Source: Bacteroidota bacterium (GTDB taxonomy: Bacteria; Bacteroidota; Bacteroidia; Palsa-948). From it: 38,970 nt of DNA. The stretch lies in contig JACRAL010000010.1 in assembly GCA_016213435.1 (NCBI GenBank), positions 1 through 38,970 on the forward strand. The letters run 5' to 3'. The position numbers and the translations under genes were made by a program. Positions 2,884 to 10,540 of the stretch are shown piece by piece (position 1 is the stretch's first letter; every line of letters begins with the position of its first letter). The notes below the pieces were generated by a model. The model was not told the DNA's origin. It worked only from the letters and a program-made list of their open reading frames with translations, and ran no database searches.

Positions 2884-3651
2884 ATGTTTTTCATTATCTC
2901 AAAAATACTTTCATTTCTTTTTATTCCTGTCACATGGATCTTTATCCTGTTGGTGATTGCGATCATTTTAAAAAATCCAAAAAGAAAAAATAAAAGTTTG
3001 TTAGCTGCGGTGCTGCTCTTTTATTTCTTCTCCAACTCTTTTATTATGGAAGAAGTAAACCGCGTGTGGGAAGTGCCGGCAACTTCTTACAAAGACTTGA
3101 AAACCTATGATGCAGGAATTATACTTGGCGGTATTTTAGATTATGATGTCAAACTGGATAGAATGCAATTTCAACGCAGTGCAGACAGATTGTTTCAGGC
3201 AGTGGAGCTGTACAAGACAGGTGTGATCAAAAAAATATTTTTTGTCGGAGGAAGCGGAAGCATTGAGTTTTATTACCTGAAGGAAGGAATGTTTGTGCGC
3301 AGGTATCTGCTCCTGCTTGGAATTCCGGATAAAGACATTTGGATTGAAAATGAATCACGCAATACACATGAAAATGCGGTGGGAGCAAACGAGTTTTTGG
3401 AAAAGCACGAATACACCAATGGTAATTTTTTACTCATCACTTCCGGAAGCCATATGCGCAGGGCGCTTGCCTGTTTTGAAAAAGTAAGCTTGAAAGTTTC
3501 TCCCTACAGTGTTGACCGCAGAGCAGGCCCGATAAGAAGATATACGTTTGATCATTTACTGATTCCAAATACAGGAACACTTCTTGACTGGGCTTCTCTG
3601 ATTCACGAATGGATTGGGATGATTACTTATAAAATTCAGGGGTACGCTTGA
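2884..3651 (+). CDS. DUF218 (YdcF/ElyC/SanA-type) membrane-anchored protein
   Basis: A 255-residue protein with two hydrophobic segments at about 1-30 and 38-57, then a DUF218 Rossmann-like domain. The family signs are DAGIILGGILDY, FVGGSGS, and ESRNTHENAVGA, which matches the conserved E-SxNTxEN motif, then LLITSGSHMRRALACFEK. Members such as SanA and ElyC affect envelope integrity and peptidoglycan precursor lipid handling in E. coli, but the biochemical reaction of most members is unknown. The start ATG at 2884 gives a sensible N-terminal membrane anchor. The gene is alone and converges with the M1 peptidase. Confidence 0.88.
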   Translation: MFFIISKILSFLFIPVTWIFILLVIAIILKNPKRKNKSLLAAVLLFYFFSNSFIMEEVNRVWEVPATSYKDLKTYDAGIILGGILDYDVKLDRMQFQRSADRLFQAVELYKTGVIKKIFFVGGSGSIEFYYLKEGMFVRRYLLLLGIPDKDIWIENESRNTHENAVGANEFLEKHEYTNGNFLLITSGSHMRRALACFEKVSLKVSPYSVDRRAGPIRRYTFDHLLIPNTGTLLDWASLIHEWIGMITYKIQGYA

Positions 3652-3694
3652 CAAGTCAGTCACTCAGCCCTAAAGAGAGAATGTCCGGAATTTG

Positions 3695-3714
3695 CTCCCC
3701 TTCAGGGGGTGGGA
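3695..3714. repeat. Dispersed C/G palindrome at the peptidase 3' end
   Basis: CTCCCC (3695-3700) faces GGGGGTGGGAG (3704-3714). It lies between two convergent genes and its G-rich arm encodes the last residues (ISPTP) and the stop codon of the M1 peptidase on the minus strand. Confidence 0.5.
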
Positions 3715-5393
3715 GAAATTTTTCTTAATCTTTTATTTTTCTCTATTCCGAAAAGTTTCGTGTAGTTATTAAAAGAGATCTCTTTATAGGTTAGAGATGA
3801 AACAGCAATTTTTTGAACTTTAACTGTTGGCTTTAAATTTACTTTAACAAGATTGTCAAGCATTAGTTCAGCCGACATTTTAAAAGTGGGATCCACATTT
3901 TTCCAGTGGTAATAAAAGTCAGTGCCGTCCCAGTAATATTCCAGTATCGGAGTTTTTCTTTCATACAAATATTGTTTGAAGAACCATTCATAATCCTCCC
4001 CTGTTTTTTCATTGACCATATCAATAAAGTTCTGAGAGGTAACGGTTTTCTTTGCGTACTTCTCCTGAAAGGATTTAAGAATGTCAAAAAATATTTTGTC
4101 ATCACTTATCTGTGTGCGAAAAGTGTGAAGCACCCAAGCGCCTTTCTGGTAACAGTCGCTGTTGCGGTAGTCAAAATAGCGGTAGCCCGCAGGACCCACC
4201 ACAGGATATTTGTTTGCAATAAATAATCTGTAAACAAGCAAGTAGTTCAGATAAGCATTTTTTCCCTCGGTGCTTTCCACATAAAGTGCTTCGGCATACG
4301 TGGCGAAACCTTCCTGAAGCCATACATCAGAAAAATCGGAAGCGCTAACACTATTACCCCACCATTCATGTGCGCTTTCGTGCAGGATGATGTAGTCAAA
4401 TCCGTTGTAAGAATTTTTGTACCCTGCACCATAAGCAATTGCACTCTGATGCTCCATTCCTTCATAAGGGGATTCAACTAATTTGTATCCGTCTTTGTAC
4501 CATGGATATTCTCCGAAAGTCTTTTCGTAGAAAACAAGAAAGTCTTTTGCCTGAGCTAAATGTGTTTTTGCTTTTTCATAATTAATCGGCAATACGTAAT
4601 GATTTATCGAAAGGGTTTTTCCTGAAGGCATTTCTAAGGAATCAGCCAGCAGTTTAAATTTTCCTACATAAAGCGTAACATCATACAGATTGATGGGGTA
4701 GGAGACAAACCATCTGTATGTATCAAACATTCCGTTCGATGTTTTCCCGATAAGATGTCCGTTGCAAACCGCCACCAGATCTTTTTTAACGGTGATGTTG
4801 ATTGTTACGCTGTCAGGTTCATCGTTGTTAACGTCTTTGCAGGGCCACCACAAACTCGCGCCTTCAGTTTCGCAGGCAACACCTATCCATGGATTTTTTT
4901 CTTTGTCTTTGCTCCAAACGAAACCGCCTTTCCATGGTGGTTTTGCTGCAACAAGCGGTGAACCTTCGTAATCAACAGCAAGACTGAATTTTGCGTTGGC
5001 TTTTTCTTTTATTGCTACGAAGATTGCCCCGTGCTTTCTTGTATAACTCAATTCTTTTCCTTCCTCAGAAATTATACTGATGATTTTCATGTTCTCATAC
5101 AAGTCAATTTGCAGCGTATCAAAATCAGAGAGAGTGGTTGCGTATATTTCAACTGCTCCTTTCAGACTTTTGTTTTCTTCATTCACCATTACGAAGAGAT
5201 TGTAATACGTTACATCAAAGCAATTGCGGTACTTTGTATTTTCATTGCCAAGCAGTTTTGTGGATTCAGAAAACTTTGGGTATTTGTTTGCGTGCTTGGG
5301 GTTTTGAACTTTTACGTGCAGACCCAATAAAGAGCAGGAGGATAAAGTGAAAAGAAAGAAATAAGCGGAGAAAAGTACAATAGATTGCGTCAT
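3702..5393 (-). CDS. M1-family zinc metallopeptidase (putative lipoprotein)
   Basis: A 563-residue gluzincin peptidase. The zinc site HESAHEWW gives H338, E339 and H342, with the third ligand E361 in LQEGFATY, 18 residues after the second histidine as the M1 family requires. The exopeptidase motif GxMEN is altered to GMEHQ at about 311-315, so aminopeptidase specificity is uncertain. Starting at 5393 gives MTQSIVLFSAYFFLFTLSSC, a signal peptide with a lipobox-like SSC. A longer frame to 5471 exists, but its 26 extra residues are the translation of a palindromic intergenic repeat (5388-5464) and are very probably not real; even the chosen ATG lies in the arm of that repeat. The C-terminal ISPTP also comes from a repeat. 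It probably trims peptides in the periplasm or at the outer membrane. Confidence 0.88.
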   Translation of the reverse strand: MTQSIVLFSAYFFLFTLSSCSLLGLHVKVQNPKHANKYPKFSESTKLLGNENTKYRNCFDVTYYNLFVMVNEENKSLKGAVEIYATTLSDFDTLQIDLYENMKIISIISEEGKELSYTRKHGAIFVAIKEKANAKFSLAVDYEGSPLVAAKPPWKGGFVWSKDKEKNPWIGVACETEGASLWWPCKDVNNDEPDSVTINITVKKDLVAVCNGHLIGKTSNGMFDTYRWFVSYPINLYDVTLYVGKFKLLADSLEMPSGKTLSINHYVLPINYEKAKTHLAQAKDFLVFYEKTFGEYPWYKDGYKLVESPYEGMEHQSAIAYGAGYKNSYNGFDYIILHESAHEWWGNSVSASDFSDVWLQEGFATYAEALYVESTEGKNAYLNYLLVYRLFIANKYPVVGPAGYRYFDYRNSDCYQKGAWVLHTFRTQISDDKIFFDILKSFQEKYAKKTVTSQNFIDMVNEKTGEDYEWFFKQYLYERKTPILEYYWDGTDFYYHWKNVDPTFKMSAELMLDNLVKVNLKPTVKVQKIAVSSLTYKEISFNNYTKLFGIEKNKRLRKISPTP

Positions 5394-8149: not shown

Positions 8150-8230
8150 AGATTAATTCAGTTATATAATATGAGGGATAAAATTAGCAACAAGTTTGGA
8201 AACGGAGGGGAAAATTCACTGGCTGTTCTC

Positions 8231-8244
8231 TCCCCCCTTATAAA
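8231..8244. repeat. Left half of a split C/G palindrome plus left target duplication
   Basis: TCCCCC followed by CTTATAAA (8237-8244), the latter being the left copy of the 8-bp target duplication. Joining this to 10525-10537 (GGGGGACTAAGGG) restores a palindrome with a TTATAA loop, so the element inserted in the loop of a dispersed repeat. Confidence 0.75.
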
Positions 8245-8269
8245 GGCAACGAATCACTAAATGGGACAA
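8245..8269 (+). repeat. Left terminal inverted repeat of the IS1595 element
   Basis: 25 bases from GGCAACGAATC to GGGACAA, identical to the reverse complement of 10492-10516; the match ends exactly at the next base. Confidence 0.95.
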
Positions 8270-8275
8270 TCGAAA

Positions 8276-8380
8276 TTAAGTAATTTTTAGTTTTTCTTTT
8301 ATCTGTTGAAATTTTTCTGAATTTTCGTCTAACATTTCAGGAGGGATAAACCATACAGGATAACTATGTGAAGATGGCAT
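8276..8380 (-). pseudogene. Possible remnant of a passenger protein
   Basis: A 34-codon minus-strand frame from ATG at 8380 to TAA at 8276-8278, protein-like in composition (VWFIPPEMLDENSEKF, then a KEKLK tail). The frame is open a few codons further upstream before a stop. No homologue is recognised. It ends seven bases inside the left inverted repeat and probably is the tail of a decayed cargo gene; a chance ORF cannot be excluded. Confidence 0.3.
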
Positions 8381-8546
8381 ACCTACACAAATAACGTGGA
8401 CTAATTACGGTTTTCGGTAAATGGTATCTTCTCATATTATATCTATTTTTTGTATGAATAAGTTTATTAACAAGCAGGGATTGTATCTGTTGAAATCTTT
8501 TTATGTCGCAACTCGTCTATTTGCGTTACTTTTACATTAAATAGAA

Positions 8547-8577
8547 AAGTCCGACACCGGCAAAGGAAATCGGACTT
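8547..8577 (-). terminator. Minus-strand intrinsic terminator inside the IS
   Basis: AAGTCCGA (8547-8554) pairs with TCGGACTT (8570-8577). Read on the minus strand the stem is followed by TTTTCTATTT. It begins two bases after the stop of the small ORF at 8579-8698. Confidence 0.6.
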
Positions 8578-8578
8578 C

Positions 8579-8698
8579 TCAAAAACGATTTGACGAAGGG
8601 TGCGTTGATTTAGGAGAGTTAGAGTAAGGTTTCAGTCTGCAAAACTGAATATATCTAATGTCCGATACTTTTAACTTCTGAATCTTCCCCTTTGTCAT
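8579..8698 (-). CDS. 39-aa basic ORF or small RNA, divergent from the winged-helix gene
   Basis: The frame starts at ATG 8698 and encodes 39 residues rich in K, R, S and P (MTKGKIQKLKVSDIRYIQFC at the start). A promoter-like TATATTTG box lies immediately upstream (minus strand, 8708-8701) and an intrinsic terminator begins two bases after the stop. With the box so close, transcription should start at or next to the ATG, so the message would be leaderless or the product may be a non-coding RNA of about 150 nt. The two divergent starts (8698 and 8732) are only 33 bases apart, so the winged-helix protein could regulate this transcript. I recognise no family. Confidence 0.4.
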   Translation of the reverse strand: MTKGKIQKLKVSDIRYIQFCRLKPYSNSPKSTHPSSNRF

Positions 8699-8700
8699 TA

Positions 8701-8708
8701 CAAATATA
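8701..8708 (-). promoter_or_regulatory. Candidate -7 box for the minus-strand small transcript
   Basis: Reads TATATTTG on the minus strand, matching the Bacteroidota TAnnTTTG consensus. The nearest TTTG upstream is only 15 bases away, shorter than the usual 19-20. Confidence 0.4.
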
Positions 8709-8731
8709 TAAAAAAATAACACACAAAAACT

Positions 8732-9130
8732 ATGAACACAAAAGAAGAAGTAAATCTATCTAACTTAGAAAAGATATATAAGGACAAAGTCCTTTTCTAT
8801 CAAAATAAACTTGATGCTATAAAAACATTAAGAATACAGGAAGATGAAATGCCTGATAATAAGGTACAGAAAAATCATATTCCAGCTAAGAAGTTCGATC
8901 TTCCCGATGAATATAGCGTTCATTGGGGGCAAGATGATAAAATATTATTTGCTCTTAAAAACATAAAAGAAGGATTTTCAGAAGATGTTGCAAAAGAATT
9001 AGTACGCTTAGATGATAGTTTTGATAAAACAGGATCGGAAAAATTAGCAAGACAAAAACTCTCGAAATTAAAGGGATTGGGATATATAAATCATTCTGCA
9101 ATAGGACGTAGGCATAAGTATAGCATATAA
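8732..9130 (+). CDS. IS passenger: putative winged-helix protein
   Basis: A 132-residue protein inside the IS1595 element. Residues 1-45 are charged and helical, possibly a coiled coil. Residues 69-132 look like a winged helix: helix KILFALKNIKEGFSEDVAKEL, helix KLARQKLSKLKGLGYI, and a basic wing ending in IGRRHKYSI. The layout resembles DNA-binding regulators, with the C-terminal half being the binding domain. I cannot name a family. It is divergent from the small minus-strand transcript and upstream of the transposase, so it might control element expression or be unrelated cargo. Start ATG at 8732 is the only reasonable one and has no Shine-Dalgarno. Confidence 0.65.
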   Translation: MNTKEEVNLSNLEKIYKDKVLFYQNKLDAIKTLRIQEDEMPDNKVQKNHIPAKKFDLPDEYSVHWGQDDKILFALKNIKEGFSEDVAKELVRLDDSFDKTGSEKLARQKLSKLKGLGYINHSAIGRRHKYSI

Positions 9131-9250
9131 AGAAAAACCCCGATTTCGGTCGGGGCTGTGGCGAAGTATCGTAAATAGATGCGGTACACTTGTGGAGAGT
9201 GGGGGTTATTGTTGTCGGATTCATAACCCGATGGCAAACGCCCCTTTCGC
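9131..9250 (-). ncRNA. Candidate small RNA inside the IS, divergent from the transposase
   Basis: On the minus strand a promoter-like TATCTTTG box (9262-9255) predicts a start near 9250. A strong intrinsic terminator follows about 95-110 bases later: CCCCGA and TCGGGG arms around a short loop (9155-9138) followed by TTTTTCTTT. No convincing ORF lies between. The interior contains two mutually exclusive stems: GGGTTAT with ATAACCC (9203-9209 and 9223-9229), and TCGG with CCGA around a TTATGAA-type loop (9215-9231). No -33 element is evident. It could be a regulatory or antisense RNA for the element. I do not recognise a known RNA family. Confidence 0.5.
9138..9155 (-). terminator. Strong minus-strand intrinsic terminator
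   Basis: CCCCGA/TCGGGG stem followed on the minus strand by TTTTTCTTT. In the plus direction it also lies eight bases after the winged-helix stop but lacks a T-run, so it mainly serves minus-strand transcription. Confidence 0.75.
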
Positions 9251-9254
9251 TTTT

Positions 9255-9262
9255 CAAAGATA
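9255..9262 (-). promoter_or_regulatory. Candidate -7 box for the IS small RNA
   Basis: TATCTTTG on the minus strand, a full TAnnTTTG match, about 100 bases upstream of the terminator at 9155-9138. No TTTG at the expected -33 distance. Confidence 0.4.
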
Positions 9263-9303
9263 CACATATTTTCTAATTGATAAATAACGCTCTTTTTGCA
9301 TAG

Positions 9304-9311
9304 TAAATTTG
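9304..9311 (+). promoter_or_regulatory. Candidate -7 box for the transposase
   Basis: TAAATTTG, a full TAnnTTTG match, 79 bases upstream of the transposase ATG and back to back with the small-RNA box at 9255-9262. A -33 TTTG at proper spacing is not seen. Confidence 0.35.
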
Positions 9312-9390
9312 TTAATAACTTTCATAGGTATTTTGTCCTGTTATGTTACTAATATTATTATCTTTACTATATCAATAAAAACAACGCACT

Positions 9391-10308
9391 ATGAAAACTC
9401 AATTTAAAAACCTACTTCAAATCCTCGACTACTTCAAGGACGAAGCAACTTGCAGGGAACTACTGGAACTGCAAAGATGGAATGGAAAACCTACCTGTCC
9501 TCATTGCGGACACGAAAAAGTTTACCGCACGAATAGAGGTTTCAAATGCGCTTCTCCAAAGTGCTACAAAAAGTTTTCTGCTACAACCGGAACGATACTG
9601 GAAAGCTCAAAGCTACCGCTTCGTATATGGTTCGGTGCTATCTACCTGAACACAGCACACAAGAAAGGTATTTCTTCTCATCAGTTAGGTCGTGATTTAG
9701 GAATTAGTCAGCGCACAGCATGGTTTGTTTTACAGCGTGTTCGTGCTATGCTGAAAAATAATAATCCTTCTTTACTCACAGGAACAGTTGAAGTGGATGA
9801 AACATTTGTAGGAGGCAAAGCAAAGAACAAACACGCCAAACAACGCAGAGAAATAAAAGCAACTGGATATGTAAACAAAACTATGGTATTCGGCATCCTT
9901 GATAGGGATGGTAAAACGGTACATAATCAAATCGTTGCAAACGTGGACGGAAACAATTTAAAACCTATCATTAACGAAAAGGTAAAGGAAGGTTCAATCG
10001 TTATGTCGGATGGCTTCGGGGCTTATACTGGATTAAATGCAAACTATCAGCACGAAGTAATCAACCACGCACAAGGCGAATATTATAGGAATGGTTTCCA
10101 TACAAACACTTTAGAGGGATACTGGTCGCAATTAAAGAGAGGTATCTATGGTATTTATCATTCTACAAGCAGAAAGCACCTGCATAGGTATTGTGATGAA
10201 TTTGCATTCCGTTATAATAATAGGCATGTAAGCGACACGGAAAGATTTATTAATGTGCTTACGAAGGTTGCTGATGCAAGACTTACATGGAATCAGTTGA
10301 CAAAATAA
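9391..10308 (+). CDS. IS1595-family (ISXO2-like) transposase
   Basis: A 305-residue transposase. An N-terminal zinc ribbon has C36, C39, C53 and C58 (CPHCG, then CASPKC). A helix-turn-helix-like part follows (SSHQLGRDLGISQRTAW). The RNase H-like catalytic core has VDETFVGG with D136, MSDGFGAY with D207, and HTNTLEGYWSQLKRG with N239 and E242. It ends in the typical FRYNNRHVSDTERF segment. The order and motifs are those of IS1595-family enzymes, which move DNA by a cut-and-paste or copy route and make 8-bp duplications, matching the flanks seen here. The gene appears complete, without frameshift. The downstream 39-aa gene begins 18 bases after its stop and is probably co-transcribed. Confidence 0.93.
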   Translation: MKTQFKNLLQILDYFKDEATCRELLELQRWNGKPTCPHCGHEKVYRTNRGFKCASPKCYKKFSATTGTILESSKLPLRIWFGAIYLNTAHKKGISSHQLGRDLGISQRTAWFVLQRVRAMLKNNNPSLLTGTVEVDETFVGGKAKNKHAKQRREIKATGYVNKTMVFGILDRDGKTVHNQIVANVDGNNLKPIINEKVKEGSIVMSDGFGAYTGLNANYQHEVINHAQGEYYRNGFHTNTLEGYWSQLKRGIYGIYHSTSRKHLHRYCDEFAFRYNNRHVSDTERFINVLTKVADARLTWNQLTK

Positions 10309-10326
10309 AGTTTGTATTTTTACATA

Positions 10327-10446
10327 ATGGCAAAGAAGAAAAAGGTAAAAAAGAAACGAGCGCACAAGTATGAAAAGAAATTAATCATTAAGGGTTCATT
10401 TCTTGACGTGATTAATGCACTTGTGGACGTGGATAAGAAGAAGTGA
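10327..10446 (+). CDS. 39-aa lysine-rich protein co-transcribed with the transposase
   Basis: ATG at 10327 to TGA at 10444-10446. The first half is very basic (MAKKKKVKKKRAHKYEKK) and the second looks folded or binding-competent (LIIKGSFLDVINALVDV). It starts 18 bases after the transposase stop and ends 45 bases before the right inverted repeat. Short basic proteins with a KGSFLDVI-like tail look familiar to me next to Bacteroidota insertion sequences, but I cannot give a family name. A nucleic-acid-binding accessory to transposition is an inference from charge and position. Confidence 0.6.
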   Translation: MAKKKKVKKKRAHKYEKKLIIKGSFLDVINALVDVDKKK

Positions 10447-10491
10447 TTTTTAAAAAGCAATAATCTTGTGCCAGTTTTACTTTACCCTACT

Positions 10492-10516
10492 TTGTCCCAT
10501 TTAGTGATTCGTTGCC
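10492..10516 (-). repeat. Right terminal inverted repeat of the IS1595 element
   Basis: 25 bases ending CGTTGCC, exact reverse complement of the left end, followed directly by the right CTTATAAA target duplication (10517-10524). Confidence 0.95.
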
Positions 10517-10540
10517 CTTATAAAGGGGGACTAAGGGGGA

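Follow-up and report, generated by a model that had tools for sequence, protein, structure and literature searches.

Insertion sequences of the IS1595 family are described as single-gene elements that generate 8-bp target duplications (PMC8101967), and in one survey they span 700-1287 bp (PMC7371123). Passenger-carrying relatives, the "transporter IS" (tIS), are also known. According to PMC11891212, which cites Siguier 2009, the IS1595-family element ISNha5 carries transcription regulators. The Bacteroidota element that we analyse here is an IS1595-family tIS, and thus of a known kind. The best explanation for its organization, in which we have high confidence, is a backbone combined with an exchangeable cargo slot.

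The window (the whole 38,970-nucleotide stretch that was analysed) is contig C47 of a 3.7-Mb genome in 216 contigs. Direct reading and a repeat search place a 2272-bp element at positions 8245-10516, between valS and nadC. Its 25-bp terminal inverted repeats (GGCAACGAATCACTAAATGGGACAA at 8245-8269 on the plus strand, and its counterpart at 10492-10516 on the minus strand) begin with GGCAAC and are complementary at 25 of 25 positions. Most related elements also begin with GG. Two copies of an 8-bp target duplication, CTTATAAA, lie immediately outside at 8237-8244 and 10517-10524, and exact duplications also flank 31 delimited relatives. A perfect 25-bp pair and an exact 8-bp duplication around a transposase gene are far beyond chance. 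The repeat finder reports a 39-bp arm because the duplication sits inside a flanking palindrome, and the true end was set at the GG by comparison with the family.

The element is present as a single copy in its genome, which gives no sign of recent movement. Only one other IS1595-like transposase was found in the same genome (G000:C43; 49% identical). Three congeners (G005, G002 and G003) lack the element here, and in them only 45-194 bp separate nadC from valS; this comparison is among congeners, whose intergenic DNA differs.

The transposase (305 aa; 9391-10308, plus strand) matches the NCBIfam model transpos_IS1595 (NF033547; E 1.7e-59). It carries a Pfam Zn_ribbon_IS1595 domain at its N-terminus (PF12760; E 1.6e-9), as expected of every IS1595 group except IS1016, and DDE_Tnp_IS1595 at its C-terminus (PF12762; E 1.4e-41). 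These matches, the ends and the duplication bear out the original prediction of a cargo-carrying IS1595-family element with exact ends and target duplication. The transposase is not the only gene, being accompanied by a second, small conserved gene and by cargo. A single gene is the usual description of the family and does not serve to exclude members; members with passenger genes are recognized (PMC11891212).

Searching GTDB contigs and 395 genomes of the class with the transposase yielded 76 transposase loci, from which a script that looks for inverted repeats and an 8-bp duplication delimited 35 distinct elements, some of whose ends may be wrong. Five of the 35 are bare (961-1117 bp), so that the window element, as predicted, is about twice the size of a bare member. 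The other 30 bear cargo and measure 1.8-5.8 kb. Typical ends are GGYAACTATATAC...GGGACAA, and the cargo lies to the left of the transposase, to its right or on both sides. Cargo genes are nearly all unique; few protein clusters other than the transposase recur, each in two or three elements. Cargo includes N6 DNA methylases, some with restriction domains (L006, L086, L108), a HigB toxin with an HTH partner (L113), a PemK-like toxin (L093), a HEPN-like family (L090, L105, L106, and a relic in L338), P63C (L088, L131 and its cluster mate L132), KilA-N (L133), HNH (L011), and a HATPase with a STAS-like DUF4325 protein (L105). The cargo across relatives is hyperdiverse, spanning restriction-modification, toxin-antitoxin, HEPN and P63C/KilA-N genes.

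Several loci show further features. Beside the HigB gene and its partner in L113, a protein with an rve integrase-core domain (3219-4292) perhaps marks a nested element. The relic in L338 (5242-6347) comprises a transposase C-terminus, the HEPN-like gene and the small terminal gene, with no detectable ends. L340 (G120:C124; ~5.5-7.0 kb) holds a decayed 1506-bp copy with near-perfect ends and an exact duplication, AGTAAAAA; its transposase is truncated and its small gene is intact, 66 bp from the end.

The closest relative of the window element (G004, also recorded as L005/L085) comes from the same genus, is 3742 bp long and is flanked by the duplication CCTTAAGG. The two have in common ~36 bp of the left end, including all but one base of the 25-bp repeat, and the entire stretch that starts shortly before the transposase and runs to the right end. 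The small genes are 92% identical at the amino acid level, and the 2.5 kb of left cargo in G004 is unrelated to that of the window element. The backbone consists of the 25-bp ends, the zinc-ribbon DDE transposase and the gene for a small basic protein just inside the right end, and the cargo slot, which reaches from the left end to the transposase promoter, has been exchanged in the congener. With its IS-type ends, its transposase and passenger genes that appear not to serve transposition directly, given that G004 swaps cargo and keeps the backbone, the window element has the makeup of a tIS.

The original prediction had joined four parts into a single accessory module, and this does not hold: G004 keeps the ends, the transposase and the small gene and replaces the rest, which assigns the small gene to the backbone. 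Copies of the same four parts at other loci were not found at high identity; the winged-helix gene recurs in the same place in other elements.

The transposases of the two elements are themselves mosaic, with 99% identity over residues 1-128, 44% over residues 129-218 and 83% over residues 219-305. Segment trees agree, as the N- and C-terminal parts pair the window element with G004 (support 100 and 99) and the core does not. Both the cargo swap and the core swap are most simply explained by recombination between co-resident elements. The mosaic core itself (window 9777-10044; L005 3387-3654) is closer in the window element to that of L087. Internal copies of the terminal repeats near the transposase promoter, considered as a relic of cargo capture, are suggestive in L085 and L106 and weak overall, and we set this idea aside.

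The small gene predicted behind the transposase (10327-10446, plus strand) encodes a lysine-rich protein of 39 aa and proved real by profile search and by its pattern of selection. Its family comprises ~25 lysine-rich proteins of ~40-55 aa with the consensus KYxxKLKxxGTFxxxIxAxV...PKKK, all at IS1595 loci (leave-one-out E 1e-7 to 1e-12), an association that is partly built in, since the five seeds of the profile all came from such loci. A search of 395 whole genomes with this profile was not confined to IS1595 loci; it gave 17 matches at E<=1e-7, and 16 of these are at IS1595 loci. No member was detected by profile search in ~100 control contigs. A strong homologue in L333 (6797-6928; G206:C5; E 6.5e-15) has no IS1595 transposase within 6 kb. 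The small protein matches nothing in Pfam, NCBIfam or PHROGs and nothing significantly in the PDB, and its predicted structure is one helix, with no fold worth searching.

The small gene is present in 14 of the 30 cargo elements and always reads outward. In eight of those 14, 67-80 bp separate its stop from the transposon end, including where cargo lies between the gene and the transposase. This often fixed distance would suit a DNA feature such as subterminal binding sites, and the frame might then not be a protein gene at all. We regard that as very improbable, as synonymous changes dominate between pairs (dN 0.03-0.06 against dS 0.57-0.99; dN/dS ~0.06, indicating purifying selection) and in L008, L104 and L109 the frame instead follows the transposase immediately, a long way from the end. 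Judged from these sequence comparisons, the small gene is a backbone gene of the element and not cargo.

Empty sites could be rebuilt from 32 exact duplications, which are 86% A+T. Inverted repeats flank 8 of the 32 sites at p<0.05, where 1.6 are expected. For instance, the window target is CCCCC-CTTATAAA-GGGGG and that of G004 is CCACGA-CCTTAAGG-TCGTGG. Across the 32 related insertions, palindrome centres, including the terminator-like C5-G5 palindrome of the window (8230-8250 and 10510-10530), are hit above expectation.

Within the cargo slot of the window element, the gene at 8732-9130 (plus strand) encodes a protein of 132 aa with a predicted N-terminal helix and a C-terminal winged helix (residues 66-132), modelled by AF2 at pLDDT ~90; structure prediction thus agrees with the winged-helix-like gene originally proposed. 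The protein has no significant sequence match in Pfam or NCBIfam, and Foldseek returns winged-helix matches of the MecI, BlaI and PapI-like type at a marginal E of ~0.01. In L087 and L104, homologous genes lie upstream of the transposase (leave-one-out E 8e-7, 2e-10 and 4e-8), the L350 protein is 78% identical to that of L104, and weaker homologues lie near IS1595 transposases in L352 and L354. No convincing homologues were found in phages, plasmids or viral contigs. In L324, L325 and L332, coiled-coil plus winged-helix-type proteins are encoded close to serine-recombinase-like genes, another mobile context for proteins of this type.

The extra 1.1 kb of the element could be host DNA that was trapped between two ends and has no organised function. 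Consistent with this, the cargo differs in almost every element and none of 60 relatives has a close homologue of the winged-helix gene. We consider such accidental capture improbable, as elements from other families carry a member of the winged-helix family at the corresponding position, and in L104 and L350 the winged-helix codons are under purifying selection (dS ~0.8-1.8) and the adjoining RNA is conserved.

Two promoter-terminator cassettes had been predicted on the opposite strand. Both have a TAnnTTTG -7 box and a hairpin terminator; their promoters are only probable, because the -33 element is missing or badly spaced. Cassette R1 (8540-8708, minus strand; box 8701-8708) would encode an RNA antisense to the leader of the winged-helix gene. 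It ends in a terminator-like hairpin (8540-8577) that was read by eye and has an 8-bp stem and a long loop, and its fold scores z -3.0 with the terminator and -1.8 without it. Cassette R2 (9130-9262, minus strand; box 9255-9262) is a candidate structured RNA convergent with the winged-helix gene. It has a terminator hairpin (9138-9155) followed by a T run, and this terminator, unlike that of R1, is found by the automatic scan.

Comparison with the relatives places R2 in a recurring arrangement. In the window element, L087, L104 and L350, an opposite-strand segment of 120-270 nt lies between the winged-helix gene and the transposase; its terminator meets the winged-helix stop, and a TAnnTTTG-like box starts most of these segments. 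L112 is arranged in a comparable way, with a similar protein that is unproven as a winged-helix type. A 94-nt stretch of the segment is identical between L104 and L350, at a divergence at which synonymous sites in the neighbouring gene are near saturation, and its 5' part is barely alignable (41-53%). On the evidence of these alignments, the L104/L350 segment is a conserved RNA with a variable head. L371, which has no IS1595 transposase, encodes a protein with this architecture together with a convergent RNA; the heads of the L371 and L104 RNAs are 87% identical. Taken with the conservation between L104 and L350, this therefore points to a mobile protein-RNA pair. The L371 pair (3477-4120; G512:C3) adjoins a Bro-N/KilA-like gene and an IS110-like transposase.

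For the window itself, an RNA at R2 is probable from its position, promoter box, terminator and a mild excess of folding over shuffles. That the opposite-strand cassettes are chance terminator hairpins and not RNAs is a serious possibility, to which we give somewhat less than even weight. The R2 fold is only slightly better than that of shuffles (z -2.3, and -1.0 without the terminator), the -33 box is missing, a search of Rfam with the window and five related loci returned no relevant family, and no conserved copy of R2 was found in 60 relatives. R2 resembles the L087 RNA weakly (blastn E 0.26); apart from this, no sequence homologue was detectable outside the window, and it is not detectably related to the L104 RNA. 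Chance would have to account for the agreement in place and orientation between R2 and the conserved RNA of L104 and L350, with similar stretches in L087, L112 and L371, and we favour a genuine RNA at R2.

Other ideas about these RNAs were rejected. Mimicry of tRNA was suggested by anticodon-arm-like stretches on the plus strands of R1 and R2 (17 nt exact to tRNA-Met in several genomes), and shuffled elements match tRNAs about equally. Pairing with the winged-helix start codon is not a general rule: a perfect 12-nt antisense match exists in L104 and L350 (0 of 200 shuffles), and none exists for R2, L087, L112 or L085. The 14-mer core of R2 has only chance matches in viral contigs. In type III toxin-antitoxin systems, a repetitive antitoxin RNA lies upstream of, and co-directional with, an endoRNase gene; here the RNA is convergent and not repetitive, and the protein is a winged helix.

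It is rather unlikely, in our estimate, that the winged-helix gene and the RNA are transposition regulators of one element sublineage and not cargo. The position of the gene, upstream of the transposase and on the same strand in the window element, L087, L104 and L350, would suit such a role, as would the transcription regulators for which ISNha5 is cited in PMC11891212. The nearest relative by transposase and ends (G004) lacks the winged-helix gene, and weaker homologues, as well as one protein-RNA pair (L371), occur without an IS1595 transposase, which argues for cargo.

We propose that the transposase would bind the GG...GGGACAA ends and move the whole unit, creating the 8-bp duplication in an AT-rich site, here the centre of the C5...G5 palindrome between nadC and valS. 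Cargo would be swapped by recombination between elements with common ends and transposase. From domain type, position and neighbours, we guess at two roles: the small basic protein would most likely be a DNA-binding accessory factor that aids or regulates transposition, and the winged-helix protein would most likely act as a repressor, with the adjacent RNA tuning its level. More tentatively still, and with rather less than even confidence, the winged-helix gene and its convergent structured RNA, in which the 3' domain is invariant and the 5' domain variable, may constitute an undescribed two-part system of Bacteroidota that is regulatory, toxin-antitoxin-like or anti-phage, travels on IS1595 transposons and also occurs apart from them, with the small terminal protein as a new accessory factor of these transposons. 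The small terminal protein and the protein-RNA cargo look new. This novelty is provisional: in the accessible literature we found no description of a conserved terminal small gene or of such cargo.

Small IS-type transposons are usually viewed as single-gene selfish DNA, and this Bacteroidota group instead works like a cargo vehicle on a small scale: its conserved second gene is missing from family libraries, and its slot gathers genes for restriction, toxins and regulation. The terminal small gene offers a simple marker by which such transposons, and the cargo in them, can be found, its product is a testable candidate accessory factor for DDE transposition, and the protein-plus-RNA cargo is a concrete lead toward a new small-RNA system.

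Like the IS1595 groups ISPna2, ISH4, IS1016, IS1595, ISSod11, ISNwi1 and ISNha5, the window element has the zinc ribbon and DDE_Tnp_IS1595 domain, GG ends and 8-bp duplications (PMC8101967). Unlike the described elements, it is 2.3 kb long and has a second conserved small gene and cargo. It resembles tIS such as ISNha5, for which PMC11891212 reports passenger genes including transcription regulators, and differs in its small terminal protein, which the accessible papers do not mention. The winged-helix protein shares its predicted C-terminal fold with MecI, BlaI and PapI-like regulators and has an N-terminal helix in place of their dimer domain. In contrast to Tn7-like transposons with defence cargo (PMC8649781), the element is far smaller, has one DDE transposase and no targeting proteins, and relies on unrelated machinery; as in those transposons, shared ends enclose variable restriction-modification, toxin-antitoxin and conflict cargo.
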